Shown in pieces: positions 5,692 through 59,165 of a stretch of DNA of 64,000 nt; the first letter of the stretch is position 1; the number at the start of each line of letters is the position of its first letter. The DNA lies in NCBI GenBank assembly GCA_951800685.1, contig CATOJY010000001.1, forward strand, positions 246,255 to 310,254, given 5' to 3'. The stretch comes from an uncultured Lachnospiraceae bacterium (lineage in GTDB: Bacteria; Bacillota; Clostridia; Lachnospirales; Lachnospiraceae). The position numbers and the translations under genes are program-made. A model generated the notes under the pieces. The model was given only the letters and a program-made list of their open reading frames with translations. It had not been told where the DNA came from and did not search any database.

Positions 5692-6641
5692 TGCGTAATT
5701 ACCCCCTTTATCTTATTAACAAAATCATCAGCCGTAATCAAAACGCCGCGGGCTTTCCCGGCAAGGTACTTGCTGGAGTTACTTGGATAATCAGCAACCA
5801 CATAGGCGCATGACTCCTTTGCGCTTGTATTTTCTATCTCAAGAATCTGCACTCCATTATCGTACCTTGCAATGCTGTTACAATAATTAAGGAACGCTGT
5901 TCTTGTTAAATGCACGCCGTCAACACACACCATCCCTGTGATGCAGATTTTTATCCTGCGTATCCCTTCCTTCCTCAGATTGCTGAATATCTTTTCCGCC
6001 AGTAGTATATCGGTAAGAGAATTGTATAGCCAAAAAAGTTTCTCTGAATCATAAATCCCTCGCCGGCTACAAAAGCTTGCAACACCGCCGCATTCTTTAA
6101 TACGCTCAATAAGCTGGCTGGCATTATTAATCCCCCTAAACATAACCCCTGTACTTGTGCTTAACTCAGGCAATCCCAACATGCTTATCATTCCGCTAAA
6201 TGTCATCTGCTGTGTTCTTATCCTACTGCAGGTGTGGAACATTGTTTGGCCTGCAACCGTCCCGTATAATGACTGCGGATAATCCTCATAGCGAAGCGCA
6301 AGGACTTCTATATGTGACTTGTAACGCAGCCTGCTGTATACCCCGTTAATCATCTTTATGCATGTCTGGTCACCAATCCCTTTAGTGCCAAACCTTGAAA
6401 ACAACTCTGACAGCGCAAACCCAAGCTTAACCTTACAGCGTGGGTTACAGCAGGCAGCCCTCTTTAAATCCCGCGTTATAATATTTTCGCTTCCGCAGAC
6501 GCACTTATCAGGGAAGATGCCGTCTTCCGGGAAATCTGCATCTACATAACGCGCTGGTATCAAACCAATCTCTTTCGCTTCCCTCACAGTGACAAAATTA
6601 TCAAATGCACCATACGTATTTGTAAGCTCGCTAAACTTCAT
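5628..6641 (-). CDS. C-terminal half of a split NAD+-dependent DNA ligase (Zn finger, HhH, BRCT)
   Basis: Zn finger CVCGSENIITRDLKRAACCNPRCK, FGTKGIGDQTCIKMI, HhH-like segment, C-terminal BRCT (IKICITGMV...SSKYLAGKARGVLITADDFVNKIK). Start trimmed to MKFSELTNTYGAFDNF, which has a GGAGG RBS. Confidence 0.82.
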   Translation of the reverse strand: MKFSELTNTYGAFDNFVTVREAKEIGLIPARYVDADFPEDGIFPDKCVCGSENIITRDLKRAACCNPRCKVKLGFALSELFSRFGTKGIGDQTCIKMINGVYSRLRYKSHIEVLALRYEDYPQSLYGTVAGQTMFHTCSRIRTQQMTFSGMISMLGLPELSTSTGVMFRGINNASQLIERIKECGGVASFCSRRGIYDSEKLFWLYNSLTDILLAEKIFSNLRKEGIRRIKICITGMVCVDGVHLTRTAFLNYCNSIARYDNGVQILEIENTSAKESCAYVVADYPSNSSKYLAGKARGVLITADDFVNKIKGVITQCMESEKKGYTAETVAMMNSF

Positions 6642-6684
6642 CGTATCTTCATTCCTCCATGACATGATTGTGAGCAGATTACAA

Positions 6685-7368
6685 TTAATCCTCGATGCTG
6701 TCAGTAACAGCCATATAAGAAATAACCTTCTCGCCACCCTCTAATGAGAGCACTTCTATCTTCACGATACAGATTCCCTCATCATTCATTGCCTTGTATC
6801 GCCAGAAGGGCACTGTACATCTGTAATGCAGCCCATTATAAGTAATTTCAAGCCAATAAAGCTCCATTCCATCATCCATGGAGGCCCTTCGCTTTTCATA
6901 GTTTGCGTAATCACACACATAATCCATGGACTTGACATTATAGGAAACCGGAATATCTACACCGTTCAGGTCCCTTAAGAAATCTGCCGCAGAGTCCAGT
7001 CTTTCGGGTGTTTTCATTTCCCCGTCCTCATAGTCAACTATTCCCGGTGAGAACCGTGTTTCTGCTTCGGTCTCCGACTCTTCCGTGGAATCCCCTACAC
7101 CCTGCTGCGCTTTTTCTGACTGATGCTGGCGCTGTGCGGATTCTGTGCCTGTGCTCTGTCCTGGCTGTTCCGGATTTGTGCTCACTTTCCGAAGCAGTAT
7201 AAATGCTGCTGCAACAACAACGACCACAATAGCGCCTATTATGATAAACTGTGGATTCACCTTATTGCCCTTAGCTTTCACGTCATCCATGTCATCAAAC
7301 TCAAGTTCAGCAATATTATCGCTGTCCTGCTCACTCTTCTTTCTATTGCTATCTAATCCTAACCCCAT
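6685..7368 (-). CDS. Single-pass membrane protein
   Basis: 227-aa ORF; TM helix FIIIGAIVVVVVAAAFILL after an acidic cytoplasmic N-terminus. Confidence 0.7.
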   Translation of the reverse strand: MGLGLDSNRKKSEQDSDNIAELEFDDMDDVKAKGNKVNPQFIIIGAIVVVVVAAAFILLRKVSTNPEQPGQSTGTESAQRQHQSEKAQQGVGDSTEESETEAETRFSPGIVDYEDGEMKTPERLDSAADFLRDLNGVDIPVSYNVKSMDYVCDYANYEKRRASMDDGMELYWLEITYNGLHYRCTVPFWRYKAMNDEGICIVKIEVLSLEGGEKVISYMAVTDSIED

Positions 7369-10300
7369 TATTGCCTCCTTCTTTCTTGTGCTGTTTACAT
7401 TTAGTAATTATAGAATCTATCTCGTGAAGGTCTACATCATCCTTAACGTGAATCCAGCGCAGGCTCCTAATGGAGGTCTTGAAAAGTATGCTTTTCCCGG
7501 CATTCTCAGCAGTGACGTATTTTATGAGCGCTTTTTTATAAAGCTCGACTAAACGGGAGTCTTCCACCCTTATAATAATCTGGTTAGGCGTCAGCATTAA
7601 ATTGTCATACTCTTCTTCTTTGACAATGACATCCGCTACTGTCTTTGCTCCCTTACATTCCAGGTCAAGTCTTAATGCATCTAGTGCTTCATCGCCATCG
7701 TAGCTGGCATTAAGGCTCCCGTCATCATCGTCATCATCCCCGGTTGCATCAAAGGACCAATAAGAGTTATCTGCATTGTGCTCATCATCAAATAACTCAG
7801 TATAGTCAATTTCCTCAGCAGCATCCTCAACATCAGCCGCCCCACGCTCCACGGTGTACACACTGCCGTCCTGCCCGCGTATCTTCCTTCCGGTCCCATA
7901 CACATCAAGAAGCCATGATTCGAGTTTGCTTATAAATACCTCATTTGAACGGTATTCTTCATCTTCCTTCGTAGCCCCGCTTGGCAATGGCGCTATCTTG
8001 CGGTTTTCTTTATAGCAATCCCCCACATAAGACCGCACCGTGTAATTGTCCATCTTTTCAAGTATAGTATTGGCATCGATGATGCATGTGTCCAGATCTG
8101 GGATTATACGGCGCAGTACCTCACCTATGCGATCTTCGATATACTTCGCCCGATAAGGCTTCACATATTCCCAGGCATCATCAATCCAAGTTTCCTTAAA
8201 CTCTCCACGGTCATAACGGTCGATCATCCTCTTTACGAAGTATACAGGCGCTTCCCGGGCATCATCCTTTACCTCTCCCCAGGTATTGCCAACATTGATT
8301 CCTACAAAATAGTTTGTATGTCCTTTTATGCGAATCATACATGCTTTCATTACTAGCTTATAAATAAGAAATGGGTGTACGCTTTTGTGCACTGAGCACA
8401 GCAGCTCGTCGTGTATAAGCATATGCCATTTAATTTTATCCTGTATTCCATACTCCTCACAGATCTCATAAAACCGGATAAGTATTTTCCTAAAGAGCTC
8501 TGCTGCGTAAGACTGGATTGGATAATTCCCTGCCTTCCTCCTGATGCTGCTCTCCTTGCGATTGTCCATATTCTCCAGGTCAAATGTCCGGTAAAACCCA
8601 TAACGGTTCGCTATGCGCCCAACCTTAGCCGGCACCTTATTGCCATGCGCGTCCAGGACATACTCATTTGAAATTATCTTTCCTTTTACATCCTTGACAA
8701 CCTCCCGCTTATAGGCATCCATGAACTCCCGCAGGTTATCCGGCAGCTTCCACTCAAGAAGAGCCTTATCCCTCTGCCCCTCCAGGAAATCCATGATAGG
8801 CTTATTGCTTGCTTCCCATTTAAGCAGCAATTTCTGAGTCTCAAAAATAGTATCATCATTGGCTGCGCCAAATAATGTCTCAGCAAGGGACATTACTGAC
8901 AACCCGTATGGTACGCCGAACCCAACGCTCTTTGTCTGTTTCCGCAGTTTTTTATCGACCTTATAAGGGGGTATGCGCCACACAATAGCAGCAGTTTCAA
9001 TATGATAGTCCTTTTCAGGATCCATCATCTTATGGATAATTTCTGTGTGCTCAGCTAATGATGCCATAATCCTGTACTCTACCTGCGCCATATCAAAATC
9101 AAGCAGATAATAGTCATCGGAGTAAGGTTTTATCAATGCCTTTAACGTACCTTTCATAGTCTGCCCAGGGTTCATAATGCGCCTCGTCTCAATGCGTGCC
9201 AGGGAAAAGTTCTTAAAAATCTTCCCCTCCATATTCGTGTCCAGGATAGGCTTGAAATAAGAAGTGTACTCTTTATTCAATACTGCATACTTGGATAGCA
9301 CGATTGCCAGCGGATACCGACAGCTATTGAACTCGTCAGCATTTACTAAAACCATATCCGACAGCCTCTTGGAATGTTTTTCTTTCGCATCCTCGTATTC
9401 AGCGTAGTCGACGCCGCTGGCTAATACATCATGCTGTAATTTCCATTCATGTCCGGAATCCCTTGCATCCTGTGGAATTTTACAGGACGCGAGTTTTTTC
9501 ATAACAAACTTGTCTGTTTTTGGTACTTTATTATTTCCATTTGAATCGCCTTCTGTGTAGCCAAAAACCTTGTACCCAAGGATGCCGTAGATGACGTCGC
9601 GTATGCTGGATGCCTTTATCTCAAATTCAAACCGGCAATCCATCCCCTCTAGTGAGATATTCTGTACTTGCTCACTGTACTCACTTTTGGTCAAAATCCC
9701 AGAGTCAAGCTTAGCCTTTAATTTGCGCTGCTCATTCCTCGTGGCTACGACACGCCCAACATAGTCATACATAAAATTCCTCAGGATTTCCAGATTTTGC
9801 TGGGAATGCTGAGCCATTTCGAAAAGGGCTTTCTGGTCAGAGTTCATCCCATTGTACTCGGCTTCGTATAGTATATTAAGCATGGGGACATCCTGTTTCC
9901 TATACTGGCTGTATAGCTCGTCGCTCATAATGTCACGTAGCGCTTTAAAAACTAACCGCGTAAAGTCTGCATCCGCGCATCCATAAATCTCAGCTACTAA
10001 CTTTTCAGTTAAGTAACGGTATTTGTCTTCATTCCCTTTTCCTAAAATATCCTCTAGTTCCGGCGTTTCACATTTCAAGAGTTTCCGCGTAAGCATCTTC
10101 AGCTTTTTAGAACCGCGTATTAATTTTGGGCTTAAAACAAAAGCCATCTGCTGTGTGTCATCGTCAAACCAGGGGCGCACGTCATAATCAAAGAAAACAC
10201 GGCCATCAAAAGTGACATTATGCCCTACCAGGTTGATTGCGCTCCTCCTGAAGCTGACGACTCTATCTTTCTCTAAAGCTTCGGTTGCTTCCGCATCGCT

Positions 10301-11374
10301 ATTTTTCTGCCCTGTGCTAAATACATCCATCTCTTTAAGCTCAGGCTCTTTTGTTACTTTCCGAAATAATTGGATGCTCCGTATCTCCTCTTCCGTCCCT
10401 GTGCTGGTCTTGTTATACCTCGCCTTGGTAATGAAAGGTGCAAGCCTCTCCATGGCATACCTATTTGGTATAGAGTCAAAATGCTCCATATCTGTGAAAA
10501 TAACGAAAGCCTTATTGTCCTCCCATGCAATAGGTATGGCGACGCAGTGTGACTTGTCCGGGTTGCCCTCACTCAGATTATAGACATTCAAGCCTGTCGT
10601 CTCGGTATCTATAGATAGCAGGAGCTTATCGCCAGTACCATCGATAAACTGCACGGCTTTGGCAAGCGGGGCTATAATCAGCGACTCAAAATCCTCAACC
10701 GTCGTAATGGCTTTATAATCCTTCTTGCGGACGCCGTCTTCTTCAAACCAGCTCATATCAAGCACATCGCAAAGTGTCTGGTATGTGACTGTCTTCAACG
10801 TTGAGACAATGACATGCTCTGCGGACTCGCGCGCAATCTGCACCATCTCAATATCGCCAAGCTTGACAGACATATCGCTTCCCTGCATATCAATTTTCAC
10901 ATCTTTGTAATTTATTGAGAAACTTTGGAATTCATTATTTTTCTTTTCATAGGCAAAAGTTAAATTCCTATCCGAGGCTGAAAATGTACTGAGCTTATCG
11001 ATGCCCACATTTCTCTCGCTATGTCCCAGTATATTATTTGCTGAAAAGCTATACATCGTTGCGAACCGTACTACATCTAAAAACCTTTCTATCTCGGAGA
11101 TAGTCAATGCATTGCTGGCAGTCACCACCCCGGTCGTACGCATACGTTTCATATGACATCGCAAATAACGTGCATCTGCATACTTCTCAAAAGCCCCCCT
11201 GCTTTTAAGCACAATATCCTGCGGGGTCTCACCCATAACATGTCTGTAAGAGTCGGATTTCGTAAACCTGTTAAAAATTGTATAGGTCACATACGACTTC
11301 GTCTCATTCATAAGGACGAAGTATAATTGCGACCCTATCGAGAATGTTCCTGATAATTTCACTGAATAAATCAC
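7349..11374 (-). CDS. Family A DNA polymerase with DEDD 3'-5' exonuclease domain and long acidic C-terminal extension
   Basis: Exo I LLLSIDTETTGLN, Exo II NLVGHNVTFDGR, Exo III YGCADADFTRLV; Pol A DFDMAQVEYRIMASLAEH; motif B RKQTKSVGFGVPYGLS; motif C WHMLIHDELLCSV. Confidence 0.93.
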   Translation of the reverse strand: MIYSVKLSGTFSIGSQLYFVLMNETKSYVTYTIFNRFTKSDSYRHVMGETPQDIVLKSRGAFEKYADARYLRCHMKRMRTTGVVTASNALTISEIERFLDVVRFATMYSFSANNILGHSERNVGIDKLSTFSASDRNLTFAYEKKNNEFQSFSINYKDVKIDMQGSDMSVKLGDIEMVQIARESAEHVIVSTLKTVTYQTLCDVLDMSWFEEDGVRKKDYKAITTVEDFESLIIAPLAKAVQFIDGTGDKLLLSIDTETTGLNVYNLSEGNPDKSHCVAIPIAWEDNKAFVIFTDMEHFDSIPNRYAMERLAPFITKARYNKTSTGTEEEIRSIQLFRKVTKEPELKEMDVFSTGQKNSDAEATEALEKDRVVSFRRSAINLVGHNVTFDGRVFFDYDVRPWFDDDTQQMAFVLSPKLIRGSKKLKMLTRKLLKCETPELEDILGKGNEDKYRYLTEKLVAEIYGCADADFTRLVFKALRDIMSDELYSQYRKQDVPMLNILYEAEYNGMNSDQKALFEMAQHSQQNLEILRNFMYDYVGRVVATRNEQRKLKAKLDSGILTKSEYSEQVQNISLEGMDCRFEFEIKASSIRDVIYGILGYKVFGYTEGDSNGNNKVPKTDKFVMKKLASCKIPQDARDSGHEWKLQHDVLASGVDYAEYEDAKEKHSKRLSDMVLVNADEFNSCRYPLAIVLSKYAVLNKEYTSYFKPILDTNMEGKIFKNFSLARIETRRIMNPGQTMKGTLKALIKPYSDDYYLLDFDMAQVEYRIMASLAEHTEIIHKMMDPEKDYHIETAAIVWRIPPYKVDKKLRKQTKSVGFGVPYGLSVMSLAETLFGAANDDTIFETQKLLLKWEASNKPIMDFLEGQRDKALLEWKLPDNLREFMDAYKREVVKDVKGKIISNEYVLDAHGNKVPAKVGRIANRYGFYRTFDLENMDNRKESSIRRKAGNYPIQSYAAELFRKILIRFYEICEEYGIQDKIKWHMLIHDELLCSVHKSVHPFLIYKLVMKACMIRIKGHTNYFVGINVGNTWGEVKDDAREAPVYFVKRMIDRYDRGEFKETWIDDAWEYVKPYRAKYIEDRIGEVLRRIIPDLDTCIIDANTILEKMDNYTVRSYVGDCYKENRKIAPLPSGATKEDEEYRSNEVFISKLESWLLDVYGTGRKIRGQDGSVYTVERGAADVEDAAEEIDYTELFDDEHNADNSYWSFDATGDDDDDDGSLNASYDGDEALDALRLDLECKGAKTVADVIVKEEEYDNLMLTPNQIIIRVEDSRLVELYKKALIKYVTAENAGKSILFKTSIRSLRWIHVKDDVDLHEIDSIITKCKQHKKEGGNNGVRIR

Positions 11375-12165: not shown

Positions 12166-12397
12166 TCATAGCAGGTTCTTCACGGTACACATCAACTGAT
12201 ACTGCGTCGTATCTAAACTTCACGTATCGTTGCCGCCGCAAATCATAAAAACAATCCTTAATGAACACAACCTTGAATGCCTCTAAAATGTCGGCGTCCA
12301 AAGTTGTGCATACCACAAATTTAGAATTGTCACAGAATGTAAAAACAATAAAGCAGATCTCCTGCTTTAGAGCTGTTATTGCTTCTTCCACACACAT
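12131..12397 (-). CDS. Small hypothetical protein
   Basis: 88-aa ORF; stop and start share a base (TAATG) with the flanking gene. Confidence 0.6.
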   Translation of the reverse strand: MCVEEAITALKQEICFIVFTFCDNSKFVVCTTLDADILEAFKVVFIKDCFYDLRRQRYVKFRYDAVSVDVYREEPAMSEVDKFANRFI

Positions 12398-15300
12398 TAT
12401 TTTAGTATCCCTTTCAAATGGTCATAATCAATTTTCCCTATAGGCGTCAAAGAAAATTTGTTTCCTTTCACGCGAACCCAGAAACCTGAATTATGGACAT
12501 AGTTCAGGCTATCGGCTGTGTCCACGGAATACCTCTTATTGAATAGCATAAGGTATCCATCCTTATCGCACACAGCTGTGTGCAGCATCGCGCTAATCTT
12601 TCCAGTGAGGCTGTTTCCGAATCTTTTAATGAAATCCTTAGTTTCACGTAAAGAGCGTGCAGCTTCCTCGAGTACCCCACACTCCGCGTCAGTACCTGCA
12701 TTAAAGGCTGCGTGCTCAAGCCCTGGCCTTATCTGTATGCTTATTTGCTCATCGAGTATACGGAAGTACTCAAAAATATCTGGGTATCTGTTTATGAACT
12801 TATTGACAGTATCCACAATCACGGTATTCCCATGCTTCCCTGCATTTGCATAGAAAGCGTCATTCTCTACGACACTGTATGTATCTATCTCCCATAGGAA
12901 TGGAATATCGTTAATAGACATAATAGGTTTATTCAACTTGTACAGGTTAGAGAATGCTGTAGAACGCACTAATGCCCCAAATGCCCCGTCATTCATAAAT
13001 TTGCGGTATTCATTCATGCTGTGGAGTTTTTTATCCAATTCTGCATCTGTAAGAAACTCTCTCTTTGCATTACAAATGGTAACTAGTGCATTCAGCAAAT
13101 TCAGCCACAGCTTCTCATAAACCGAAACTGAGATAAACAAATCCCTTAATTTCTCCCAGTCGTTCCTTGCCGGGTGGGCAAGCAATGCATCTGCACAGAA
13201 AGAAATTGCAAACTCCCGGTACTTAATCTCCCGGAGTGCAGACTTTTCTTTCTCCTCAGTGTCGCACCCTTCCAATAAATACGAGAACTGGTCGGCTATG
13301 CTCCTGCCCCGTATGGCATAAAGATGGTTCCTCTTAACCGGATGCCCTTCTTTCTCCATTAACGCTTCTAGCAAGTGCACGTAACATCTGCTTAACTTCA
13401 TCCTTACACGCTCTTTATTCTCTGTGAGATTCTTGTAAGAGTCAAAGTTATAAATTGCTAGCATAAAATAAAAATGAAGCCCACGCAGGGTTCCCAAACT
13501 CTGCTGCTCAAACGTCCCTGTGTTTATGATTGAAGCTTCTACCCAATTAAGGCAGTTCCGGTACTTACCTATAAAATCTTTCCTTGCTTCCGCGCTGTCC
13601 AGGCCTACGCTAAATGGGTCAGTGTAACTGACATAATCCTCAGCCCCAGGATAAAACGGGAATTTATAAATCCTGTATGCATCACCGTGGGACTTCTGTA
13701 TTGAATCTGACCGCTGTTTAAATGCGTCCATTTCCTCCTGCCTGTCGAGGAGAGTCACTGACCGCTTACCAGCAGCCTTATCCCCAATAACACCTATCAT
13801 AAAATAGGACATTTCAGGCTTATACTTCTCGTACAGCACAAAAGCCTGCTGGTCGAAAGCCGCACATTTCTTTCGACGCTCCACATTATCGATTGCCGTT
13901 TTAATATCCCCAAGTGTGCAGGAATTTCTTAGGAAGTTCTGTATAGTCGCGGCTTCACCTGAAAGCTGTAAGGATATCGAATCAAACAAAGCATCATTAT
14001 TCCACATCCCGTTTACAACCTGTTTGGATCGTTCAGCATCCCTGTCCACGTCTTGCACTAGCTGGGCTACTGTACTTCCAAGCTTTAAATACTCATCCAA
14101 TGAATAAAAGCGTCTGGGAAGTTTTATATTCCTAAAGATCTCTGTCGGAATGCTAAACAGCGATATATCCCTTGAATTAAGGTATCTGATGAAATTCGCC
14201 AGCGCAACATAGCCCTTGTAAAGAATCTCAAACCGTTCACCGTTCCTCATCTTCGAACGCACGCTCACATCCTTGGAGTCGAACAGGCGCATCCCATCCT
14301 TAATGGTACCCTCTCTGTTCAGGTGTATATTCTCATTAACCTGTAATACTTTCTTATAAAGTTTAGAGACCTCAGACACCGCAATTGGGTTGTCCACAAG
14401 CATCTCCATTACCTTTGCAATATTATCCCTGCTGTTCTTTTTGTTATTGACATGGCTTGCGCCGACTATTACAGGATCCCATCTGTTCACTATACTATAA
14501 AGGGATGCCTTGGTCCCCAGGCTGCGGAAGATGGCCTCGCGCACCTCATTGGCTTTTTTATTGACATAATGCGTATAAATATCGGAGTAAGCCTCTGTAT
14601 TGTTTTTATGGACATAAAGTAGCTGAGAGGCAAGGGCAATATCACTTACAACAGACGGGAAATCAATATTAATCTTTTCTTTCCTATTCTCCATAGCGAC
14701 CAGTTCCATCTGGGTAGATCCCCTATCGCTCCCAATAATCTGGTCCTGATTTCTCTCGTTTGCCCTGTTTGTGTAAAATGTCCTGTTCTTGCTAAAGAAC
14801 TCCAGCGCCTTAATCAGCCACCCTACCGGATTATCATGGTTAGAGGAAAACACGTAGTCGCTGCTATACCTGTTAATCTGCTTATCCTTCAGATCGTTGA
14901 AGATTGCATTCAATTTGGCGGGGGTAGGGTTGACGTCCCCTGTGAATGCCACGTAATTGTTTTTTATGGCTTTCAGCACTTTCTCCTTTGCATAAGGTGA
15001 ATCCGCAAACAAAGACAGGCAGCGCTCATTACTGTAATCACGGAGTACACGCATTACCGCCTTATACAGTTCCTCTTCTGATATACACAAAGAGCTGCGA
15101 GTATTGCCGTACCTGCCATACTCGTAAATATTACACTGCCTCCTGCCCTGGCTGATGACTGGCTGTGTAGCCACGCATTCAATCACGGTCCGCACAATAT
15201 CAACATTCCCCTTGGTCTGCTTCTGTTTCTCTTCAACATAGTATCTCAGCGTAGAAGTACTAATCTTTAATGCCTCTCCCTCTAACGCTGCGCCAGCTTT

Positions 15301-15423
15301 ATCACCTATAATGATTGCGAGAACAAATTGCACTTTCCCTATAGGCAATGTGTCTTTTCTTAACTCACTTAGTAGCATAGCAACCTCCAGTCTGCTAATT
15401 GTCTTTCCGCTCGAAAGGGGCAT
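12397..15423 (-). CDS. Large hypothetical protein directly downstream of the RNA polymerase gene
   Basis: 1008-aa ORF, no recognised motif; 28-nt gap from the RNAP stop. Confidence 0.8.
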   Translation of the reverse strand: MPLSSGKTISRLEVAMLLSELRKDTLPIGKVQFVLAIIIGDKAGAALEGEALKISTSTLRYYVEEKQKQTKGNVDIVRTVIECVATQPVISQGRRQCNIYEYGRYGNTRSSLCISEEELYKAVMRVLRDYSNERCLSLFADSPYAKEKVLKAIKNNYVAFTGDVNPTPAKLNAIFNDLKDKQINRYSSDYVFSSNHDNPVGWLIKALEFFSKNRTFYTNRANERNQDQIIGSDRGSTQMELVAMENRKEKINIDFPSVVSDIALASQLLYVHKNNTEAYSDIYTHYVNKKANEVREAIFRSLGTKASLYSIVNRWDPVIVGASHVNNKKNSRDNIAKVMEMLVDNPIAVSEVSKLYKKVLQVNENIHLNREGTIKDGMRLFDSKDVSVRSKMRNGERFEILYKGYVALANFIRYLNSRDISLFSIPTEIFRNIKLPRRFYSLDEYLKLGSTVAQLVQDVDRDAERSKQVVNGMWNNDALFDSISLQLSGEAATIQNFLRNSCTLGDIKTAIDNVERRKKCAAFDQQAFVLYEKYKPEMSYFMIGVIGDKAAGKRSVTLLDRQEEMDAFKQRSDSIQKSHGDAYRIYKFPFYPGAEDYVSYTDPFSVGLDSAEARKDFIGKYRNCLNWVEASIINTGTFEQQSLGTLRGLHFYFMLAIYNFDSYKNLTENKERVRMKLSRCYVHLLEALMEKEGHPVKRNHLYAIRGRSIADQFSYLLEGCDTEEKEKSALREIKYREFAISFCADALLAHPARNDWEKLRDLFISVSVYEKLWLNLLNALVTICNAKREFLTDAELDKKLHSMNEYRKFMNDGAFGALVRSTAFSNLYKLNKPIMSINDIPFLWEIDTYSVVENDAFYANAGKHGNTVIVDTVNKFINRYPDIFEYFRILDEQISIQIRPGLEHAAFNAGTDAECGVLEEAARSLRETKDFIKRFGNSLTGKISAMLHTAVCDKDGYLMLFNKRYSVDTADSLNYVHNSGFWVRVKGNKFSLTPIGKIDYDHLKGILK

Positions 15424-15451: not shown

Positions 15452-18400
15452 TTAAAAGAATGAAAGATCTTCAAGCTGTACATCATCCTCATCATGCGGC
15501 GCATCCGCGGAGTCTGAATCTGTAAAGAGACTGTCGATCAGATCCACACCCCCGAATGTATCCACATCCTCCACAACACCCATATCATCAATAGTATCCT
15601 TAGCTGCATCCACGGCATCCGCTGTGTCCAGGCAGGGCTCCTGCGTATCGCTGTCAAGATTGTCAGCCGCGCCCGGCTCCTCATCGGTGGCGCTAGTACC
15701 AAAGGCATTACTGTCATCCAGCATTGTATCAAGCCCAGTAAAGTCTAATTCCCCTAAATCCAGACTTGTGTCCTCAAGCCCATGCACCACTTCGATAGCC
15801 TCACTCTCCTGGTTGAAATCCTCATCGGAATCAAAGAAAGGATTATCCTCAAACGCCCGGTTCACAATGACTGGCTGTTTTAGTGTTTTCTTCTCATCCA
15901 GAATCAAATTATTCCCAACAAAGGAACTGCCAATTAACGACGTTGTGGATGAGCTGTATACGCTATTCGCAAATACGGCGGCCTGCTCTGCCACATTCTC
16001 AAATGTAAGCATTGCCATAGGACCGCTGAAATGTGTGACGACCTCATACTTATCAGAAGTCGCCATATAATACTGCGTACTTGCTAAATCCTCCGGCAGG
16101 TAATTGCGCATAAGCTCAGAGAACTCGTAAGTCTTCCCGACCTCTAAATTCGTGTTGCCTTTGTCAACGATAGTAACCAGCAAATTCTGGCACCTCGCCA
16201 AGATCTCAAAGTGCCGGGCATTAATATCAATCCCATTGCTGCGGAATGTATCGAAGTATGCCATCATCCACACAATCTGCTTTTTCCGCAAAACTTCCTC
16301 ATCCGAATACCCCTGGCACCTTACTATTGAATTTGGCATTACATAGCCATCTGTGATAGACTCCCCATGCTTTACGTATTGGCCGTCTTTCACTATGATT
16401 GTTGTGCTGTCTAACTTCTGTTGCAGCTTACATGCGGCATTTCCATAAAGCCCGCTATCAATTGGGCACCCTGCATTCTCTGTGCGGCATTTAGCGCACA
16501 TCGTACAGTCCTGCTTCTCCGGAATAACAAAGCCAATATCCTTAGAGTCAAGCTTGATCAGCTTTACGTACCCATTATGCGGGGCTACCGTGGCAGTCTC
16601 TGAATTAGAACCACCAGGCTTTGAGCCACTCAGCAGATGCGAAAGTATTTCTACGCCACCGGCAATGCTGGTTCCTGCAGCGCCACCTGTATGGAACAGT
16701 GACATGGTAAGCTGTGCACTTGGCTCCCCAAGTGACTGCGCCGCTTCAATGCCAACATTTGAACCTACTTTGGGGATTGTCCCATCTGTGTACCTTCGCC
16801 CATAACAATGTGCGCACACACCCCCTACCGAGTGGCAGTCTAATAAGAGCCTTGCCGGAATCCTCTCGAGCCTGTTCTCCTCCACATAATCAAGGGTCTT
16901 GCGGGTAATGCACGTTATCGTTTTCCCTGATTGGTCATTACAGTCAGCTACCTCTTCGAGGTATGGCAAACCAGGGAGTCCATCCAATTCCGTGGCAGAT
17001 GCTTCCCTGCCTAGCAACAGACTTTCAACTACCGGGTTAAGACTGTAATACAGCTCATACACGCCATCATTGGTTTGCACACGTTTTAATTTTTCTGCCA
17101 CAATAATCCCAAGGCACTCATTCGTAATCTTTCTCCCTTTCAGGTAGTTTTTTAACGCCCGTAAGCTGTCCTCGTCATCCTCGCTTACCTTCGCGCCTTT
17201 CATGCTATCAATGGAAATATCAACATAATGCCGTTCTTTATCCGGTCCTGCTAGCACTAATGTGGAGAACCCTTTTTGCCTTAAATACTGAAGCACATTG
17301 TCAGTAATCTCGCCGTCCGGGGTAATCTCACTGAATTCTTTAAAGGTTTCCCTGTCAGAGAAATCCAGTCTCTTCCCGCCCAAATGCCGCTCTATAAATG
17401 CATCTGACGGCCTCAGCCTTACAACATTCTTAAAATCTCCCCATTGTACGTCGTACCACCAATTCTTCTTCCCGCAGTCGTCCTCTACAACATCAATACC
17501 ATCCAGCATATAAACAGCCGTCCTGGTTGCATGCCCGGCATTCTGCGTTTCATTCTGCGTGGATGCGACGCCGGTACGTGCAGAGAAAGATGTAATATAA
17601 GTGTCAAAGGAACTTATTCCCTCTGCATAATTTCCGGTGACTGGCATTTCCATGTTCTCAGATTTTGTCTTCTGAAGGATTCCTATGGCGCCGGTAGTCT
17701 GCATAATCTGCCCTATATTCCCGCGTGCCCCAGAGTCATAGATAATGAACAAATTATTATTCCTATCCATAGAAGCAGGGAGTGCGCTTTTTATCTTTCC
17801 AAGGGTTCCCTTATACAGATTCTGTATTCCCTTCTTCCTATCCTCCTCATGCACTATCCCCAACTGGTAGGCATTTTCCAACTGCTCTTTTTTCCTGTCC
17901 GCATCCGCAAGCAAGGAATGTTTCAAATCGTTACAACTGGCAGCATTAATATCCCCGGCAAGCGCTTCTTCCAGATTGGAATTTAACTCTTTGCTTAGCC
18001 TAAAGTATTCGCTCTCGCTGAGAATGCCCTTATCTCTTTCTTCAGCGAGGAGGTCTTTTTTACGCTGCCCCCTCTGTTGTAACTCATCTGGGATAATGCT
18101 GACGTTAATATCGTCTAATGAGAGAGTCACAGAATTAAGGTCGCTCGCGTGGAAGCCAAACTTTGTAATAGCCTGGTATATGTCTATACAATCCTCCGGG
18201 CGCTCGGTTACGAACTTTTCACATATCTTACTCAGCTTGCAGTATACAACATCCTTGCGTGTTCCTCCCTTGCCGGCAATGATGCCGTCATATTCCAAGT
18301 CGCATAAGTTATGCGTATCCCTGAATGCTGCATTGCACGGGATAGGGAGATGCAGGACGTTGCTAAATGGCCTGTCGGTGAACCCGCCTGGGATTAAGCT

Positions 18401-21400
18401 ATTAAATAAGATTCTGCCGGCAGTTGCATAATAATAATTGCCGTTCTGGCTGATAACAACGAGCGTGTAGTATTCAGCAATCCCCAGGTCTATATCGCTT
18501 GCCAGCGACTCTGTATCCGAGTAATACCTTATATCGCCAAGCACCTCAGGCGTCTCATAAACATCTGACACATTATTCTTTAGCATTGTCGCGCAATACA
18601 ACCCAAGCGCAATATCCTGTGCCGGCATTAATACAAGGGAACTATCCTTTGGGTTCCTGAACACGGACGCCGGTGACATCTTCTCCAGCGCTTCTTTTTT
18701 CGCAGTCGCAGAAAGGATTGCTTTTACCCAAACAGTATCGCCATCGAAATCAGCGTTGTATCCGCCACACACAAGCGGATGAATCTGTATGGCTTTAGTG
18801 TCGACAGCTTTGACGCGGTATGCCTTTATGCTAAATTGGTGCAGGGATGGCTGCCTGCCAAGCTCGACAACGCCTTCCTCTTCAACATACTGAATGACCA
18901 ATTTCCTTACCAGGTCATATGCTTCCCTTGCTTTCAAATTCTCTTTCGTTTCACTGTATGGGTCTATTGCTTTACTTGCAAACTTTGAATCCCACACCTC
19001 CATAAACTTCTGTGGCTGCCTTCCGCCTACAGCATTGAATAAAGCGCGCCACACATTCTTCGAAATAAACTTCCCATGTTTCTGCATACTGAATGCTTCA
19101 CACAAATATCCAATTAAAGGCTGTTTATATAACTTGACCAGCATGGACAGCGGGATACCTACCTCAGTAGGCTTCATATCAGGAAGCCCTGTTGGAATAA
19201 TAACAGACCGTCCAGAACAGAACATCTTCTTGCTTAATGTGTTTTCCCTGATTTTCCCATGGTGCTTTGAATTACTCTCGTCCCCGCTCCCGGTGAACCA
19301 GCGTATCAGGTTTGTCCTGTCCTTGTCTGAAGAAATATTGCGTTTTGCAAGTTTCTCGAAACCAAGGAACTGCTCTATATCCTGTAAAAGCGCCAGTGTA
19401 TTCGCTTCTGTAACACCCTGCGTGATACTGCGCACGTCCGCTAAAATCTGTTTATACGACTTGTCAAAATCAGACGTCCTGCTCTGTGCCCCGCCTTTCA
19501 TCAAAGGCCTAAATGTCTGTGGCATAACAGGCAGAGCGCTGATTACATAATCTGATGGGACAATGCCGGCATCAATATTATTTTTTAAACTGTTATAAGA
19601 CTTTAGCATACGAAGCAGTTCTTTATTGCTTGCCTGTTCTTCCGGTGTTATACTGCTCTTCTTCTTCGCTATCTCCGCCTCATACACAGAGACTGTTGAA
19701 TTAAAGTCATAGTTCTTAAAAACATAAATAACCGCCTCGTTCCCTGTTATAACATCCAATGGCATATCGGGGATGCCAGGCTTATAAATAGTCGGATACC
19801 CACAGGCGCTTATCGTCTTTCCTACAAACGTTTCTCCCCGAAGGAGTGAATAGAATAAGCCGCTTTGTGCAATCGTAGGTGCGGAAATTTTATGGCTTCC
19901 ATCACTGGCGCAGGTAACGACACGCACTGCTATTAACCGGTTCAGGATGCCCTTATTAAACCAAAATGGAGACACGATTTCTGTATGCAAATCAATATAA
20001 CTCCATTTTTCTTTCCCATCCATCTTGTCCCTGGGGGTCGCATCACTGCCGAATATCGCAGGATTGTGTAAGTCGTTCTCGTCATTAACAGAGTACACAT
20101 TAAGCGAGCGTATCTTAGTATCGCTGAGCGGCCTCAATGTGTAAAGGCCGTCCCTTAAATCAACATCAATGCCTAAACACCTTGTGAAGGTCTGCATGAC
20201 TAAATCGTTCTTGTTCTCCCCTATAACATCTACGTCCAGCTCACCGTTACATAGCCTCTCTTCCAGCTCAAGCTTCTTATCTATATCATCCGACTCTGTG
20301 CTGTACGTAGTCTGCAATACGCCTGTTGCCCCGATTCCCTGCAAACACCAGGACTCCATCTCACCGAACGACTGCCCGCCCTCATTTTTCTGCCCTTTCA
20401 AAGGCTGCTGGAAAATAGGGTCGATTGGCTCTTCAAGTGAAATGGCATTAACCTTCTTCTTCACCATATGGACCAGCTTAAACATATAATGCACGCCGAC
20501 ATTCACGGGCCGCTTAAAAAATTCTCCCGTCCTGCCATCGCAAAGCATCATTGGCTTAACACCTTGCCTGTCCGTCTGCTCCCGCACATAATCAATACTG
20601 CCTTTATAGTATGGAGCGATATTTACATACTCATTCTGCCGGTTCATGGCAAGCGCTAACGCACAATCCAGTAGCTGCGTAATATTCATACGTGAAGGTA
20701 TTCCAAGCGGATTGAGGATTACATCCAGCGTAAGACCGGTTTCCGGGTCATAAGGCATTTCTTCTTCAGGTATAATTTTACTTACCACACCCTTATTACC
20801 ACACCTTCCGGACATCTTGTCACCGCACTCAATATCACTCCTGGCGGCGATAATGATTTCTGCATAAACCTTATTGTCCTTCGTCTTTATATCTGACGAT
20901 ATAACCTGCCCACAGGAGTATTCATCCAGGAACTTATACTGGACCGTTACCTTGTCGCTGGAACTTACGATGACGCAGGCATAGGCGTCACCCGGGTTCA
21001 ACATTGCACCTACTGCGGCCAGACCCCTGTAATCCAGTTTATATTTCTTAAAATCGTGTTCCCTCGGCAGTCCAAAAGATTCAGTCTTATCTGAACGCTG
21101 TCTTAGCTCAACGGTCTTAGACACCATGGTGATTGAAGTCAATGTCTCGTCGTATACCAGCTTTGAGGAAATGCAGATAGCATCATCTATGGTAGACGTT
21201 TCGTATGTCTTATACCCAACTACGAGATTGACGCCTGGGCCGTATGACTGCTCTGCGCTGCCCTTATCCATCTCCAGACCGCCATAGTCCCCAACTGTAT
21301 TCACTTTCCTGTCCGCTAAAGGGTAGAAAGAAATATCAGAAGCAATTATAGCATCCCCACGGTACACTCCGTCTTTTGCAGGATGTATCCTAAAGGAGAA

Positions 21401-23710
21401 TACTGATTTTTCAGAGGTTTTCTGCATGAATGGGATACTGATTGTAGTCGTGTAATCACACTGAATCTTCCCATTCTGTGCCAGTTGTTTTGCTTCGTTC
21501 ACAATCAATTTTACATGCCGGGTTTTCTCCTGCTCCTGTATCCCATCCTTATCTATGGACAGACTGCCATTAAGAATAACATCCTTATACTCCTTTATTC
21601 CTGGGTAAATGCTGGCAGTAGATTCATAATAATCTTGCAGCACGCTGGTTGCTCTGTAATTCCCAAGTGGCAACATCGCCTCGCACCCAGTGCCGACAAC
21701 TGGCCTTTGTGCTTTAATTACAGGAACCGCCTGCTTTTGGTGGTTACAGGCCATTAGAAGCCTTTTTGCATTAGAGTTCCCCATAAATGGAATCGTTGAA
21801 CGTGCAGGCGACATATTCTGTATCTGCGTGTACTCCTTTAATGTCACTCGCTTTGTCTCTATGGTAACAACGCTCCCATTATACCTTGCTTTAATGCGTG
21901 GCTTTAGCACACGTGAACCAGATTCATCCTCCTGGAAAAACTCTTCATCCCATTCAGCAATATAATTCCCAATTTCCTCCTGGGCGCTTAAATAAACTGG
22001 CTGCTTATCCATAACGATGCCATCCTTCACGCGGAGGTATGGCACGGTTAAATAGCCCTCATCAGTCTCCTTTGCTAAAAGGGTTCTCTGGTGCACTAAA
22101 CCAATCTTATTGGATTCCGGTGAATCAATGGAATCCGTCCTGCCAAGCTGCAAGTCCTGCACCCTGCGCAGTTTCTCTGTCGCCTCAGATGACCTCACAT
22201 CCGTAGTCACCTTATAGCATTTGCTAATATAATGCAGCCCATTATTAAGGTCCGACATTTGTGCTTCAGAATCTTCAGGGTTCGCAGCTTCTTTAATAAA
22301 TTCATCGAGCTGGAAGGTTGTCTTTGCAATCTTCGCATAAAGAAATTCGTCTTCACTAAGTTTCTTCAGGTTCCTATCCAGGAGGCCAATATACTTAATC
22401 AAATTGCGCTCAATTATCTCGACTATCTTTTTATTAAATGGGGTCACTACCCTATTCGTCAATTCATAGGGATTATCATAAACGTCATACCCATTCAGGA
22501 GGTTGGCATAAAGGTTAAATACTGTATACAGATCCTCCATTGCCAGTACCCTGGGCCGCACACGCCGCCTAACTATCCTGGTATTGCCTGAGCCATCCAG
22601 CACCTTCACGGTGTCTAACTCGGACTGGTTCAGTATTACCAAATCTGATAGTGTTAATTTCTTTCCAGGCTGGATTCCGCAGTATTCTTCTGAAAGTGAG
22701 TAACCAAGCACACGGAATGTGAAGCTTGAAAATTTCCTTAAATAAAAGATCTTTCCTTTGGATTTAACCGCTATCTGATTTATAGGACGGTTATCCAGTT
22801 CAACCAGCTTATCGCTTGACAGAATCGTTCCTTGCGGAAGCAGGACACTCCCTTCTAAAACGACGTCCTCTGCCAGCTCTTTCCCCTCAGCATTCAGCAG
22901 GAAAGACATGGAACGCTGTAACCTGTCACTGTAATTTCTACCGAGGTTTAAATACTTTTGGTTAAAGTATACATCCTGAATCGCCTGCTGTTTTACAGAA
23001 GTATTCTTTATAACATCAGACTGCTTCGAGTCACCGCGCAGTATATTATACACAAAATCAATACATTCAGTCCGGCTGTGGTTATCCGCAATCCTCCCAG
23101 TACTAGACTTGCTGGATAATAAAGCATCCACAATAAATGGATTCTCAATTCCAAACATTTCAATAAGTTCATCCCCGGACACATTCGATAGCGCCCTAAA
23201 GAATGTCTTGACAGGCACAGCTTTGTTCTTAACCCTTACGATAATACCACCGGTCTTCTGATAACAAAATTTTATTGAGGATTTTCCCACAGCAACTAAA
23301 GATGCTGTCCGCTTATCAAAATCTTGCTTTTTATCATCATTCACGCCATCAGAATAATCACTGGAAAAACTCCAACCAGTAGTACGGCTGTATAAATCCA
23401 GAATCTGCATATAATTATTCTTAATCTTAAAGCCTGCTTCCGTGTAGACAGGAACATCCAACAAATCAATATTGAAGCAATGACTCTCTCCTGTTGCTTT
23501 TCTGGTAACGGTACAAGCAGCCCTCACTGTAGCGCATAATGTGCCATTTTTCTCAATGGCGTCACGTGACGAAAAAGGGAACATCTCAAAATCAATGCGG
23601 AAGTCCCCTAAATCTGTGCCGGAATAGTCACTTAGCAATTGTGGAAGCTGCTGGGTAATCATATTGTTAAATAGGCTCTTCTGCCTGTTCGCCATAATAT
23701 CACTTCCCAT
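15452..23710 (-). CDS. Single-polypeptide DNA-directed RNA polymerase, beta-beta' fusion
   Basis: Beta: [112 protein letters not shown]...[25 protein letters not shown]. Beta': [11 protein letters not shown] (about 18737-18760), bridge-helix-like [78 protein letters not shown]. Start may be M1 (23710) or M6 (23695). Confidence 0.97.
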   Translation of the reverse strand: [2752 protein letters not shown]

Positions 23711-24391: not shown

Positions 24392-25481
24392 TCATACCCC
24401 TCCTCTTTTTTAAAACACTGTCAACCCTGGCAATAATAGTCTCAAGGCTCTCCGCAAATACTTCATCGCCGCCCAGGCATTTCCGGAAAATATCAGCAGT
24501 ATTGCCACCTGTCTCCATAACCTGGCCGTGCACATAATTCATTACGAAAGACTGTAGTGCTTCATCACTCACAGCCTTTAGCGTATTATAAAGGAAAAAC
24601 CTTATCCTGTTTTTTGTCTGCGCCGGGAGATACTCTATTACACGCTCATCATTATAAATGCAATTTACAAGATGCACATTATTCTCTGGTAACTCCATCC
24701 CATGTACATAGGACATGAAATTAATAATGACATTGTCCCTCCCGTCTGCCCTGATTCGCAATGGGTTGTCTTCCGAATAAATCTTTTCCATAAAGCTATT
24801 AACGGCCGCTGTCATTGGGTTGCCAGTAACAAAGCAGTACAAGGCTTTTAACTTCTCAACATCAAGCTGGTCATAAATAACAACATTATCACCAAAGCAC
24901 TTCATGAGGTCTTGATCTATGCTATTGAACATTTCGCATTTAAACTTGATTGCAAGCTTTTTTAGCTGTATGAATCTTGACAGCTCATTCTTGCATACAT
25001 CCATCTGCAGTAACCCGCACCGCTTAGCCTCACTTACGAAAATAGTGAGATAAAAGTTATCGTCCCAAAACTTCTGGTTGTCGCAAGCAAGTCCATTTAT
25101 TGCCTGGAGCTTCTCTGCTAGAAACTTACGGACTGTTTCAGGTGTGTCCATCTCTTCTACATACAATTTCTTGTAAGCAATGCACAGCTGCTTGCGGCAC
25201 TCGAAGTACTCATTCAGTGGCAAGTCTAATGAGGAAGCAGATTCCGAGTACTGCCGGATTACACGGTTCACAATATCTATCACAGAAAATTTCAGATCTT
25301 TGTATTTATTCCTGTGATACATAAGGATTTTACGGTAGTAGCTAGCCCTTGCGTTCTTGGACTCAGACTCCTGCCGCAGTAAGCTTATCAAAGTATTAAT
25401 CTTAAGCAAGTATAATGGATTATGTACAGAAAGCCCATTCAATTCAGCAATCAAATTATCAATCTGCTCCATAGCGCTCAC
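24360..25481 (-). CDS. Hypothetical protein
   Basis: 373-aa ORF; 4-nt overlap with the upstream ligase gene. Confidence 0.75.
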   Translation of the reverse strand: MSAMEQIDNLIAELNGLSVHNPLYLLKINTLISLLRQESESKNARASYYRKILMYHRNKYKDLKFSVIDIVNRVIRQYSESASSLDLPLNEYFECRKQLCIAYKKLYVEEMDTPETVRKFLAEKLQAINGLACDNQKFWDDNFYLTIFVSEAKRCGLLQMDVCKNELSRFIQLKKLAIKFKCEMFNSIDQDLMKCFGDNVVIYDQLDVEKLKALYCFVTGNPMTAAVNSFMEKIYSEDNPLRIRADGRDNVIINFMSYVHGMELPENNVHLVNCIYNDERVIEYLPAQTKNRIRFFLYNTLKAVSDEALQSFVMNYVHGQVMETGGNTADIFRKCLGGDEVFAESLETIIARVDSVLKKRRGMNGHVTSEEKG

Positions 25482-26722
25482 CTCCCAAGCAGTCTGTCCA
25501 ATTCCACCCCATACACTAGAACATTCACCGCGCCGCTGTTCCTTACATAGTACACTTCACTCCCTTTATCCAGTCCTTCATTGACAACAATTGAAAAATT
25601 GAATGCATTAATCCAGTTTGCTGAGCACCCGTCATCGGTACGCATCGGTTTTATCCGTATACGGCAGGATGCTAAAACTCGTTTCTGCTCCCAGATAATA
25701 TCCTCTATAATCCCCTTGTACACCTTAAAGGCCCATTGTTCAAACTTTAAAGCTAACTGCCTGCTCGAATACTGCCCTGCGGTTATCCCTGTATAAGTTT
25801 TATCATTTACTTCGACAACAATCCCATCACTTGGGACGCCATCTGTCTTTTGCTCAAAATAATCAAAGACCTCCCGCTTCAGCCATTCCCGGAACTGTGT
25901 TTTATCCACTGGAATATCCTCCCATGGCACAAGTTTATGCTCGACTACGCTAAATCCTTTCTGCTCGGCTTCCTGGAAATCCTCAGAAACACTGCTTCCA
26001 AGGCCGTCTATTCCATGTACTATGATACGCAGATGCTCATAGTCCTCCTTGGAATGCTGTACCCTCAGCAGGGAGATAGCTGCAGATTTGCAAGTTTTAT
26101 ACCCATTGGGGTTGTATTTTCTACGGAGAGTCTCCAAGTAATCCTCTTCCACGTATGCTTCTGCATAGATGCGCAATTCATGCGGTACGCTCATGATGCT
26201 ATTGGGGAACACACGTTTAACCGTATCCGTAAAGTCAAAGGAAATTCCCGCATTACGCCCGCGTGAAAGTGAAAGCTCAAGATTCCCGTCCAGGTATAAA
26301 GTTTTCACATTATCCCCATCCATCTTCAGAGAAACCATCAGGTCTTTCTTCTCTTCCCGGTACTTGCTAAAGAAAGTATAAGCCTCCCCATAAGAAGTTA
26401 CTGAATCGATGCTTAGTGACTTCTCTGAGTTTAAATACTGGAACAGCCTTTCCCGGCTGTCATCGTGCTTAATGCTTATCGGCTCCACGCCAATCTCATT
26501 CAGCAGCTTTAATGGTATCGGGTCATCATCATAAGTCCTGTCCAGATAATCAGATATCTGCTGGCTGCAGCACTTCCTTACATTAAGCAATAACTCTTCG
26601 TATTCATAATCATCCATAATTGGCTCGCCAATACGGTAAAAGTATCTGGCGAGTATAAAAAGGTCGGCATACCTATCAGATGCCCTCATATCTTCTAGTG
26701 TCATAAATTTACTCCTATTCAC
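25478..26722 (-). CDS. N-terminal half of a split NAD+-dependent DNA ligase (Ia, adenylation and OB regions)
   Basis: LigA-like Ia region (ARYFYRIGEPIMDDYEYEELL), adenylation motif LKMDG (KxDG), LSRGRNAG, RQLALKFEQWAFKV followed by an OB-like segment; ends before any Zn finger, HhH or BRCT. Confidence 0.85.
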   Translation of the reverse strand: MNRSKFMTLEDMRASDRYADLFILARYFYRIGEPIMDDYEYEELLLNVRKCCSQQISDYLDRTYDDDPIPLKLLNEIGVEPISIKHDDSRERLFQYLNSEKSLSIDSVTSYGEAYTFFSKYREEKKDLMVSLKMDGDNVKTLYLDGNLELSLSRGRNAGISFDFTDTVKRVFPNSIMSVPHELRIYAEAYVEEDYLETLRRKYNPNGYKTCKSAAISLLRVQHSKEDYEHLRIIVHGIDGLGSSVSEDFQEAEQKGFSVVEHKLVPWEDIPVDKTQFREWLKREVFDYFEQKTDGVPSDGIVVEVNDKTYTGITAGQYSSRQLALKFEQWAFKVYKGIIEDIIWEQKRVLASCRIRIKPMRTDDGCSANWINAFNFSIVVNEGLDKGSEVYYVRNSGAVNVLVYGVELDRLLGR

Positions 26723-27575
26723 TTAATTTATAAGCGCAGACTAGCAGGTGCGCTTCCGAATACTCATAAGAGCATGTGTTCAAAATAATAATATCATCAG
26801 CCTCAGCATCATAATCAAGGTTAAAGAGCGACCGGTTGCTAAGAGTCCTTAAAAAATCCTGGTACTTCTGTCCTTCCTTTTCTTCGCTAAAAGATACTGG
26901 CTCGTTCCGCGCATCTGCCAGGAAAACTGAGAATACCCTATACAGCCCTACCTCGCCTTTGCGCGCAAGCACAACATCCCTGTGAGCCGTACAATAATCC
27001 TCATCCTTAAACTTATCCAGCGGTCCAAACATCTTGCCTGATTTCATATTATGCCCGTTCACTAAATTGACCTTGCCCCAGTTACCCTGATTGCCGCTAA
27101 GGTAGATGGCGCCATTACTGTCCTCTTCTTTATCAGAATTATGGTTTAGATAGAAGTCGTTTTCTGCATACATAACAGGGTAATCAATACTCGTATTGCT
27201 GATGCTAAGCCATCCCACAGTATCGGCATTTGCCTTTTTCTTCTGTTTATACTTTTTATAGTAACCGTTGGAGTCTAAAGCTTTCCTCTGCTTCTTCCTT
27301 ATCTCCTTAAGCTTCCTTTCCTTGCTCTCCGCTGAATCCTGCTCCTTTTTCTTTTGCTCCCTGATTCCCTGCAGTTCTGCTTCAATCCGCATGTCGCGTA
27401 TCGCTACGTCCTTTACAAAACGGTCCACCGTCTGCTCTGCCACAGAAGCTTTATCAGCATAAACATTAAATTTATTCTGCAGCAAGCTACACGTATCCCC
27501 AGAATCAAGGAAACTAGCGGCGCCAATACACACCACAACACCCGTAGCTGCTACTCTTGGCATTCGATAACGCAT
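26715..27575 (-). CDS. Class B-like sortase
   Basis: N-terminal hydrophobic segment; TVGWLSISNTSIDYPVMYAENDFYLNH, LVNGHNMKSGKMFGPLDKF (His), ILNTCSYEYSEAHLLVCAYK (Cys). Confidence 0.9.
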   Translation of the reverse strand: MRYRMPRVAATGVVVCIGAASFLDSGDTCSLLQNKFNVYADKASVAEQTVDRFVKDVAIRDMRIEAELQGIREQKKKEQDSAESKERKLKEIRKKQRKALDSNGYYKKYKQKKKANADTVGWLSISNTSIDYPVMYAENDFYLNHNSDKEEDSNGAIYLSGNQGNWGKVNLVNGHNMKSGKMFGPLDKFKDEDYCTAHRDVVLARKGEVGLYRVFSVFLADARNEPVSFSEEKEGQKYQDFLRTLSNRSLFNLDYDAEADDIIILNTCSYEYSEAHLLVCAYKLSE

Positions 27576-33715: not shown

Positions 33716-33752
33716 ATCCCCGGAGCACAATGGTTCGCAGGTCACCGGGGAA
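33716..33752 (-). terminator. Rho-independent-like terminator after the MinD-like gene
   Basis: Minus strand CCCCGGTGACC...CTCCGGGGATGTTTTTATAA. Confidence 0.6.
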
Positions 33753-34542: not shown

Positions 34543-34583
34543 AAAGAAAACACCTCCCACTAGAACTATTATTATCCATCTAA

Positions 34584-34616
34584 AAGAGTGTGCAGGATTC
34601 TCACCTGCACACTCTT
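34584..34616 (-). terminator. Hairpin between the adhesin gene and the MinD-like gene
   Basis: AAGAGTGTGCAGG-attctca-CCTGCACACTCTT, 13-bp perfect arms. Confidence 0.65.
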
Positions 34617-34632
34617 GATTACTCACTCTTCA

Positions 34633-54718: not shown

Positions 54719-54721
54719 CTA

Positions 54722-58900: not shown

Positions 58901-58981
58901 AATAAAATCCTCCTCTGCTTGATTAATAAAAAGGGAAGGCGTCACCCTCCCCTTACTCACTATTTTCTCTATGCAACCCTC

Positions 58982-59165
58982 CTACTCAAACAAGTATCTG
59001 AACTCTGGTCGGATACACTCAAGTACATACTCATTCTGCTTCACTGCTGCCATACACAACTCTGGGATCTGCTCCTCTACAAACGCAAGTGCGTATCCAT
59101 TCCGCCTCACTCTTTCTAATCTGTTCGCTCCTGTTATCTGTTCTAAATAAATTCATATCCTGCAT
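58982..59165 (-). pseudogene. Degenerate, shortened DUF4116 gene
   Basis: Same leader and MQDMNLF start, then frameshift; other frame reads VRRNGYALAFVEEQIPELCMAAVKQNEYVLECIRPEFRYLFE-stop. Confidence 0.7.

Follow-up and report, generated by a model that had tools for sequence, protein, structure and literature searches.

A single-chain beta-beta' RNA polymerase on a large integrated element of a Lachnospiraceae genome, most likely dedicated to that element

An uncultured Lachnospiraceae bacterium encodes the beta and beta' parts of an RNA polymerase (RNAP) in a single gene, and this locus raises the question of whether the enzyme serves the cell or a mobile element. Fusions of beta and beta' occur in Helicobacter and Wolbachia, and the known bacterial-type RNAPs of mobile elements are mostly those of phages, the well-described ones being split into several subunits. 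To our knowledge, a dedicated RNAP of a mobile element outside the viruses is almost unheard of. The DNA that we analyzed (the window; 64,000 nucleotides) is the right end (C1:246255-310254) of a 310,254-bp contig (C1) of a 3.88-Mb metagenome-assembled genome (MAG).

The polymerase, P0001, is encoded by a single ORF (2,752 aa) with no interruption, and a chance origin of this ORF is excluded. The gene and its recognizable sites are located in the window as follows.

15452 to 23710, minus strand: single-chain RNA polymerase (beta, approximately aa 1 to 1190; beta', approximately aa 1190 to 2540; then a D/E-rich C-terminal tail)
20789 to 20824, minus strand: beta double-psi barrel motif GDKMSGRCGNKG, with the catalytic-site lysines K965 and K973
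18737 to 18757, minus strand: beta' catalytic triad NADFDGD (D1654, D1656, and D1658; the next residue is T)
16799 to 16837, minus strand: second beta' zinc site C-X6-CAHCYG, kept (from the alignment)
16682 to 16744, minus strand: beta' trigger loop AAQSLGEPSAQLTMSLFHTGG (histidine retained; cellular TMRTF changed to TMSLF)
16466 to 16510, minus strand: additional cysteine cluster DCTMCAKCRTENAGC in the beta' jaw region, not in the aligned cellular RpoC

Pfam searches identified four Rpb2 domains (3, 45, 6, and 7) and then five Rpb1 domains (1 to 5), in order, with the best scores for Rpb2_6 (4.6e-57), Rpb1_5 (2.8e-22), and Rpb1_2 (3e-21). In MAFFT alignments with the RpoB and RpoC sequences of a congener (genome G060), a Subdoligranulum record, and two megaplasmids, the beta part was collinear with cellular RpoB (27 to 29% identity) and the beta' part with cellular RpoC (26 to 28% identity), with hardly any linker at the joint (approximately aa 1176 to 1200). 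The beta hallmarks are VVGTGCE (residues 671 to 677), the barrel motif (963 to 974), LNPLGIPSRMN (999 to 1009), and GGQSFGEME (1111 to 1119), and those of beta' are NADFDGD (1652 to 1658), CAHCYG (within 2292 to 2304), and the trigger loop (2323 to 2343). The alignment also indicated that the N-terminal beta' zinc ribbon of cellular RpoC is missing and that the beta' coiled-coil has a tip seven residues shorter than that of cellular enzymes. An AlphaFold2 model of aa 815 to 1990, built with 23 single-ORF sequences, was of modest confidence (pLDDT, 69; pTM, 0.65), and its top PDB matches were bacterial beta' subunits (among them Bacillus subtilis 6wvj_D; E value, 1.6e-28). The features that define a two-barrel RNAP (i.e., the barrel lysines, the DxDGD triad, the trigger loop, and the nine Pfam domains) are all found in P0001. 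Judged by its sequence, P0001 is a complete bacterial-style RNAP core with intact catalytic residues, and it is probably catalytically active.

The genes that surround the polymerase gene in the window are the following.

5628 to 6737, minus strand: NAD-dependent DNA ligase, C-terminal part (zinc finger/HhH/BRCT-like, recognized by eye; without a Pfam match)
7349 to 11374 (C1:253603-257628), minus strand: family-A DNA polymerase, 1,341 aa (family search)
12397 to 15423, minus strand: 1,008-aa protein of no known family, directly downstream of the polymerase gene
25478 to 26722, minus strand: NAD-dependent DNA ligase, adenylation domain (family search)
26715 to 27575, minus strand: sortase (family search)
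33742 to 34626, minus strand: ParA/MinD-type ATPase (44% identity to a chromosomal MinD homologue of G060)
34633 to 41862, minus strand: giant adhesin of the cell surface, containing T-Q ester-bond and SpaA domains (family search)

The two ligase halves are approximately 19 kb apart, one on each side of the polymerase gene. Elsewhere in the window, a GmrSD-type restriction protein spans two overlapping ORFs (49321 to 51172), possibly owing to a frameshift. The initial annotation had described an uninterrupted 2,752-aa ORF, without giving its strand, together with beta and beta' hallmarks, all of which we recovered in P0001; the profile search that it recommended returned both sets of domains in order, and the neighbors that it named (i.e., a DNA polymerase, a split ligase, and a sortase) were identified as the family-A polymerase, the two ligase halves (the C-terminal one by eye), and the sortase listed above.

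One reading, that P0001 is the ordinary divergent rpoBC of its host, draws on the MAG itself, in which neither rpoB nor rpoC is present apart from P0001. The MAG also lacks rpsL and a genuine fusA (98% identical between the congeners G060 and G370), and the rpsG-fusA-tuf stretch of G060, used as a DNA query, matched nothing in it. We know of no bacterium without rpsL and fusA; since these universal genes are missing too, the rpoBC locus was evidently left unbinned, and its contig is absent from the MAG. The host rpoA is located on another contig (C10). The congener G060 carries normal separate rpoB (1,293 aa) and rpoC (1,248 aa) genes, and the neighbors of P0001 are the DNA polymerase, ligase, sortase, and unknown genes rather than the rplJL-rpoB-rpoC-rpsLG-fusA surroundings. 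Apparent open frames of 2,500 to 2,690 aa for rpoB in relatives were rejected as fusions: wherever both genes were complete in the inspected loci, rpoB and rpoC were separate.

The phylogeny (LG+C20 PMSF; 30 taxa; 1,003 columns) placed P0001 outside the clade of cellular and megaplasmid RNAPs (support, 100/100) and joined it to fused phage RNAPs (support, 94/89). A grouping of P0001 with Clostridial rpoBC was rejected by the AU test (p = 7.7e-5) and again when the test was repeated without the long branch of separate-subunit phage RNAPs (p = 4e-5). A grouping with the megaplasmid RNAPs of Pontibacillus and Priestia was likewise rejected (p = 7.8e-4), while one with the separate-subunit phage RNAPs remains admissible (p = 0.106). 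The branch of P0001 is long (2.2), and its exact sister group is therefore only loosely placed; its position beside the fused beta-beta' RNAPs of large phages is weakly indicated. We give practically no credence to P0001 being the ordinary host enzyme: the phylogeny, the separate genes of the congener, and the location in an integrated element (see below) show that it is a non-housekeeping polymerase. This agrees with the initial annotation, which had attributed the gene to a non-housekeeping element and had named placement as the host's rpoBC as an outcome that would speak against it. The other such outcome that it named, a host lacking separate rpoB and rpoC, seems at first to apply, but these genes are absent from the MAG together with rpsL and fusA, as an unbinned locus would be, and they are normal in the congener.

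The polymerase gene lies in a long insertion. The first 143 kb of C1 is ordinary chromosome (i.e., flagellar, his, and cell-wall genes), partly syntenic with G060. At C1:142980 (L010:2980), a gene for a small acid-soluble spore protein (SASP; named from its sequence, without a family search) is broken after ...GSVGGYMVKK. A serine recombinase gene (C1:143087-144769, to L010:4769) spans the break with its 3' end, and its last approximately 20 codons are antisense SASP sequence. This arrangement, with the recombinase beside its broken target, is the signature of site-specific integration and shows that the element is inserted in the SASP gene. It is conceivable that insertion in such a gene makes excision subject to sporulation control. 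From approximately 143 kb to at least 288 kb of C1, nearly all genes are on one strand. Neither a direct repeat marking attR nor the 3' half of the SASP gene was found on C1; with the latter absent, the right end of the element is not seen on C1, and its length is at least 145 kb. The contig end (window positions 54389 to 64000) contains duplicated fragments of a hexapeptide-repeat protein and three DUF4116 repeat genes, and these repeats are possibly why the assembly ends there.

A binning or assembly artefact, in which an extrachromosomal replicon was wrongly joined to the chromosomal part of C1, would be compatible with a MAG in 111 contigs with 5.3% contamination and with a right end and SASP 3' half that are not seen on C1. 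The junction, however, falls inside the SASP gene, exactly beside the element's own serine recombinase, and base composition agrees with the flanks: GC3 is 0.46 in the element and 0.475 in the host part of C1, and the GC skew matches that of the flanks as well. The skew switches near 105 kb, from where the genes are on the minus strand. We consider such an artefact very improbable.

The element encodes further components of transcription. A sigma-70-family protein (202 aa; C1:163916-164524) contains regions 2 and 4 (TIGR02937, 2.5e-19; phrog_351, 4.9e-24), a GreA-like protein is encoded at C1:180597-181100 (TIGR01462, 1.3e-22; PDB 1grj, 3.8e-9), and an SNF2/DEAD helicase lies near C1:176047. 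The RNAP, sigma, and GreA genes are scattered over the element, with no common operon. No alpha-subunit gene was detected on the element, the sole PF01000 match being on contig C10. Replication and repair are represented by a flap exonuclease, UvrD, RecJ, a clamp loader, DnaG parts, a DnaB-like helicase, and a RuvC-like resolvase. A second family-A DNA polymerase is located at C1:229471-231255, and one of the element's two such enzymes apparently consists of a palm domain only. Segregation is represented by TubZ, encoded at C1:155777-156892, and by the ParA/MinD-type ATPase. The protein at C1:154666-155676 (L010:14666-15676) has a metallo-beta-lactamase fold; among the Pfam matches tallied for its set is one to anti-Pycsar Apyc1 (2e-8), so that the protein may act in counter-defence or resemble tRNase Z.

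Genes of a kind expected for transfer and for the cell surface are also present. An FtsK-type ATPase (C1:231279-233456; PF01580, 7.6e-23) belongs to a family that also has roles other than coupling. A VirB4-like ATPase (C1:184901-186880) was recognized weakly, by comparison with 835-aa ORFs of other Clostridia (1.9e-7) and with no Pfam or PDB match. The element further encodes a T2SSE-like (GspE/PilB-like) ATPase, NlpC/P60, signal peptidases (including S26), and Hsp70, and it carries giant adhesins, the sortase, and fibre-like surface proteins. The Pfam families listed for the element (the best 25; proteins left unassigned were rescanned with Pfam, and every match was listed) include no relaxase, though a divergent relaxase would escape this search.

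These genes bear on a second reading, in which an integrated large phage or phage-plasmid has structural genes that were not recognized and P0001 is its phage-type late polymerase. Fused phage RNAPs are the nearest to P0001 in the tree, numerous replication genes match PHROGs, and real phages have fused RNAPs beside structural genes, with a terminase adjoining the fused RNAP at locus L066 and a portal at L054 (two loci tested). The listed Pfam and PHROG families of the element, in contrast, include no terminase, portal, or capsid (for PHROGs, among the best 25 of 40 families, from a scan that took in little of the window part of the element); the VirB4-like, FtsK, T2SSE, NlpC/P60, sortase, signal peptidase, and giant adhesin genes are present instead. 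Besides the RNAP itself, the element has no gene in common with the DNA within 10 kb of the RNAP at 80 phage loci. A phage origin of this kind is unlikely, although it deserves to be kept in view.

The element is known from one copy, no second one being detected in the collections searched. Single-protein scans found no close relatives of P0001 in IMG/VR or GTDB genomes and none of either family-A polymerase in IMG/VR. Only weak matches were obtained with the VirB4 query in 397 genomes of the family and 392 of the class, and among 392 genomes of the order, only the present genome matched the NADFDGDT codon pattern. Scans of approximately 30 intergenic gaps for an element-specific promoter (k-mer, dyad, and sigA-like) gave results near chance level.

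An active accessory RNAP that acts mainly on host or cargo genes (e.g., those for surface adhesins), not on the whole element, would fit this near-chance density of sigma-like promoters, and the adhesin, sortase, and fibre-like protein genes do adjoin the transcription genes. Against such a role, the replisome of the element is broad and an elongation factor accompanies it, both of which suit an autonomous replicon, and nothing points to host promoters; we regard it as improbable.

We therefore favor, with a probability of roughly 70%, the reading that P0001 is the RNAP core of a giant integrated conjugative-like element, which it would transcribe, as the initial annotation had also proposed, together with the element's own sigma factor and GreA. 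The enzyme is most likely an element-dedicated, sigma-dependent RNAP. Synthesis of beta and beta' as one chain would allow the cis assembly of both double-psi barrels. The 202-aa sigma factor, the presumed partner of P0001, would dock on the beta' coiled-coil and the flap, which are retained, and choose the promoters, and the GreA-like protein would rescue backtracked complexes. Upon excision or during transfer, P0001 would transcribe the long same-strand arrays of replication, transfer, and surface genes, and the element, which presumably moves by conjugation, would thereby be independent of the host RNAP. The odds are even, in our judgment, for the broader proposition that giant conjugative elements which integrate into chromosomes form a non-viral, self-transcribing lineage, with a near-complete replisome and a dedicated single-chain bacterial-type RNAP that has its own sigma and Gre factors and descends from a deep, non-cellular branch shared with phages.

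If the favored reading is true, an integrated element that is not a phage has a natural minimal transcription system in its complete one-chain core, sigma factor, GreA, and replisome, and some conjugative elements are able to escape host transcription control. The finding also bears on the movement of deep-branching RNAPs among phages, plasmids, and cells. In the literature searched (subscription papers being outside its scope), we found no report of an integrative element that encodes a bacterial-type RNAP for itself.

The known fusions named in the initial annotation turned out to be an incomplete list, since large phage contigs commonly encode a beta-beta' RNAP in a single ORF. When IMG/VR was searched with the beta' alignment, 488 loci were confirmed, and in the best 80 (L049 to L128), a fused beta-to-beta' ORF (1,865 to 2,674 aa) was scored in 42 and separate beta' and beta genes in 37. 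That about half of these 80 loci have beta and beta' as a single gene is a useful side result. Several OR84xxxx "phage" records with high scores and the PLSDB "plasmid" OY725880 (with rpsL-like and EF-Tu-like neighbors) appear to be chromosomal rpoBC contigs and were set aside. Single-ORF rpoB-rpoC genes also occur in six GTDB MAGs (L132, L133, L140, L167, L196, and L210; Vermiphilus, Omnitrophota, and others), three of which (L132, L133, and L167) fall among cellular bacteria at two positions in the tree; the cellular fusions are independent of that in P0001. In the Bacillaceae, two megaplasmids (NZ_CP062975, 413773 to 435623, L042; pFDU301A, 614131 to 636161, L043) share a matching RNase J-beta-beta'-alpha operon, close to which greA is located in Pontibacillus NZ_CP062975. 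These RNAPs are a second non-chromosomal lineage, unrelated to P0001.

Among named systems, the fused RNAPs of large Caudoviricetes-like contigs in IMG/VR (e.g., L066, L088, and L054) share the layout of P0001, being one polypeptide with beta followed by beta' and bacterial-type domains. Most of them have NADFDGDT, as P0001 does; the T is not exclusive to them, and NADFDGDT was ruled out as a hallmark of phage fusions since many cellular phyla have it. Identity to P0001 is approximately 23 to 25% over the main aligned blocks. These shorter proteins are encoded in phage genomes, whereas P0001 is on an integrated element without recognized structural genes, which, unlike the fused phage RNAP loci, carries a sigma-70-family factor and GreA. 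The cultured partial analogues are gp206 of Salmonella phage Arash (L247), which comprises beta and the N-terminal part of beta', and the RNAP of Vibrio phage D181 (L044), which is divided into beta-N, a beta-C/beta'-N fusion, and beta'-C, the genes of the first and second pieces being separated by one for a homing endonuclease.

The phage RNAPs with beta and beta' reported by Weinheimer and Aylward in 2020, who also mentioned the crAss fusion (PMC7481178), are like P0001 mobile-element-encoded and deep-branching, with full beta and beta'. The separate-subunit phage loci, which we presume without accession matching to be that lineage, have two genes with beta' upstream and Q after NADFDGD, whereas P0001 is one chain with T. 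The nvRNAP and vRNAP of phiKZ and AR9 are, like P0001, element-encoded two-barrel enzymes without alpha; these jumbo-phage RNAPs, with split subunits, function in the absence of alpha (PMC7598289) and have four or five polypeptides and no recognizable sigma homologue, in contrast to one chain and a sigma-70-family protein. The Bacillaceae megaplasmid RNAPs (Pontibacillus NZ_CP062975 and Priestia pFDU301A) are non-chromosomal and bacterial-type, like P0001, but have beta, beta', and alpha as separate genes and are placed inside cellular bacteria. The fused cellular rpoBC genes (Vermiphilus and the other MAGs L132, L133, and L167) are single ORFs with a cellular placement. K2ORF6p of the yeast linear virus-like elements is an element-encoded beta-beta' fusion in which splitting, in the study cited, was not tolerated and destroyed function (PMC6211774); unlike P0001, it has a partial beta' completed by K2ORF7p and belongs to a eukaryotic cytoplasmic element. 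Finally, in the crAss and YonO-like single-chain RNAPs, the latter discussed with mobile-element RNAPs by Iyer et al. (PMC7824862), only the barrel regions are recognizable and most bacterial beta and beta' domains are missing, whereas P0001 has bacterial domains throughout.
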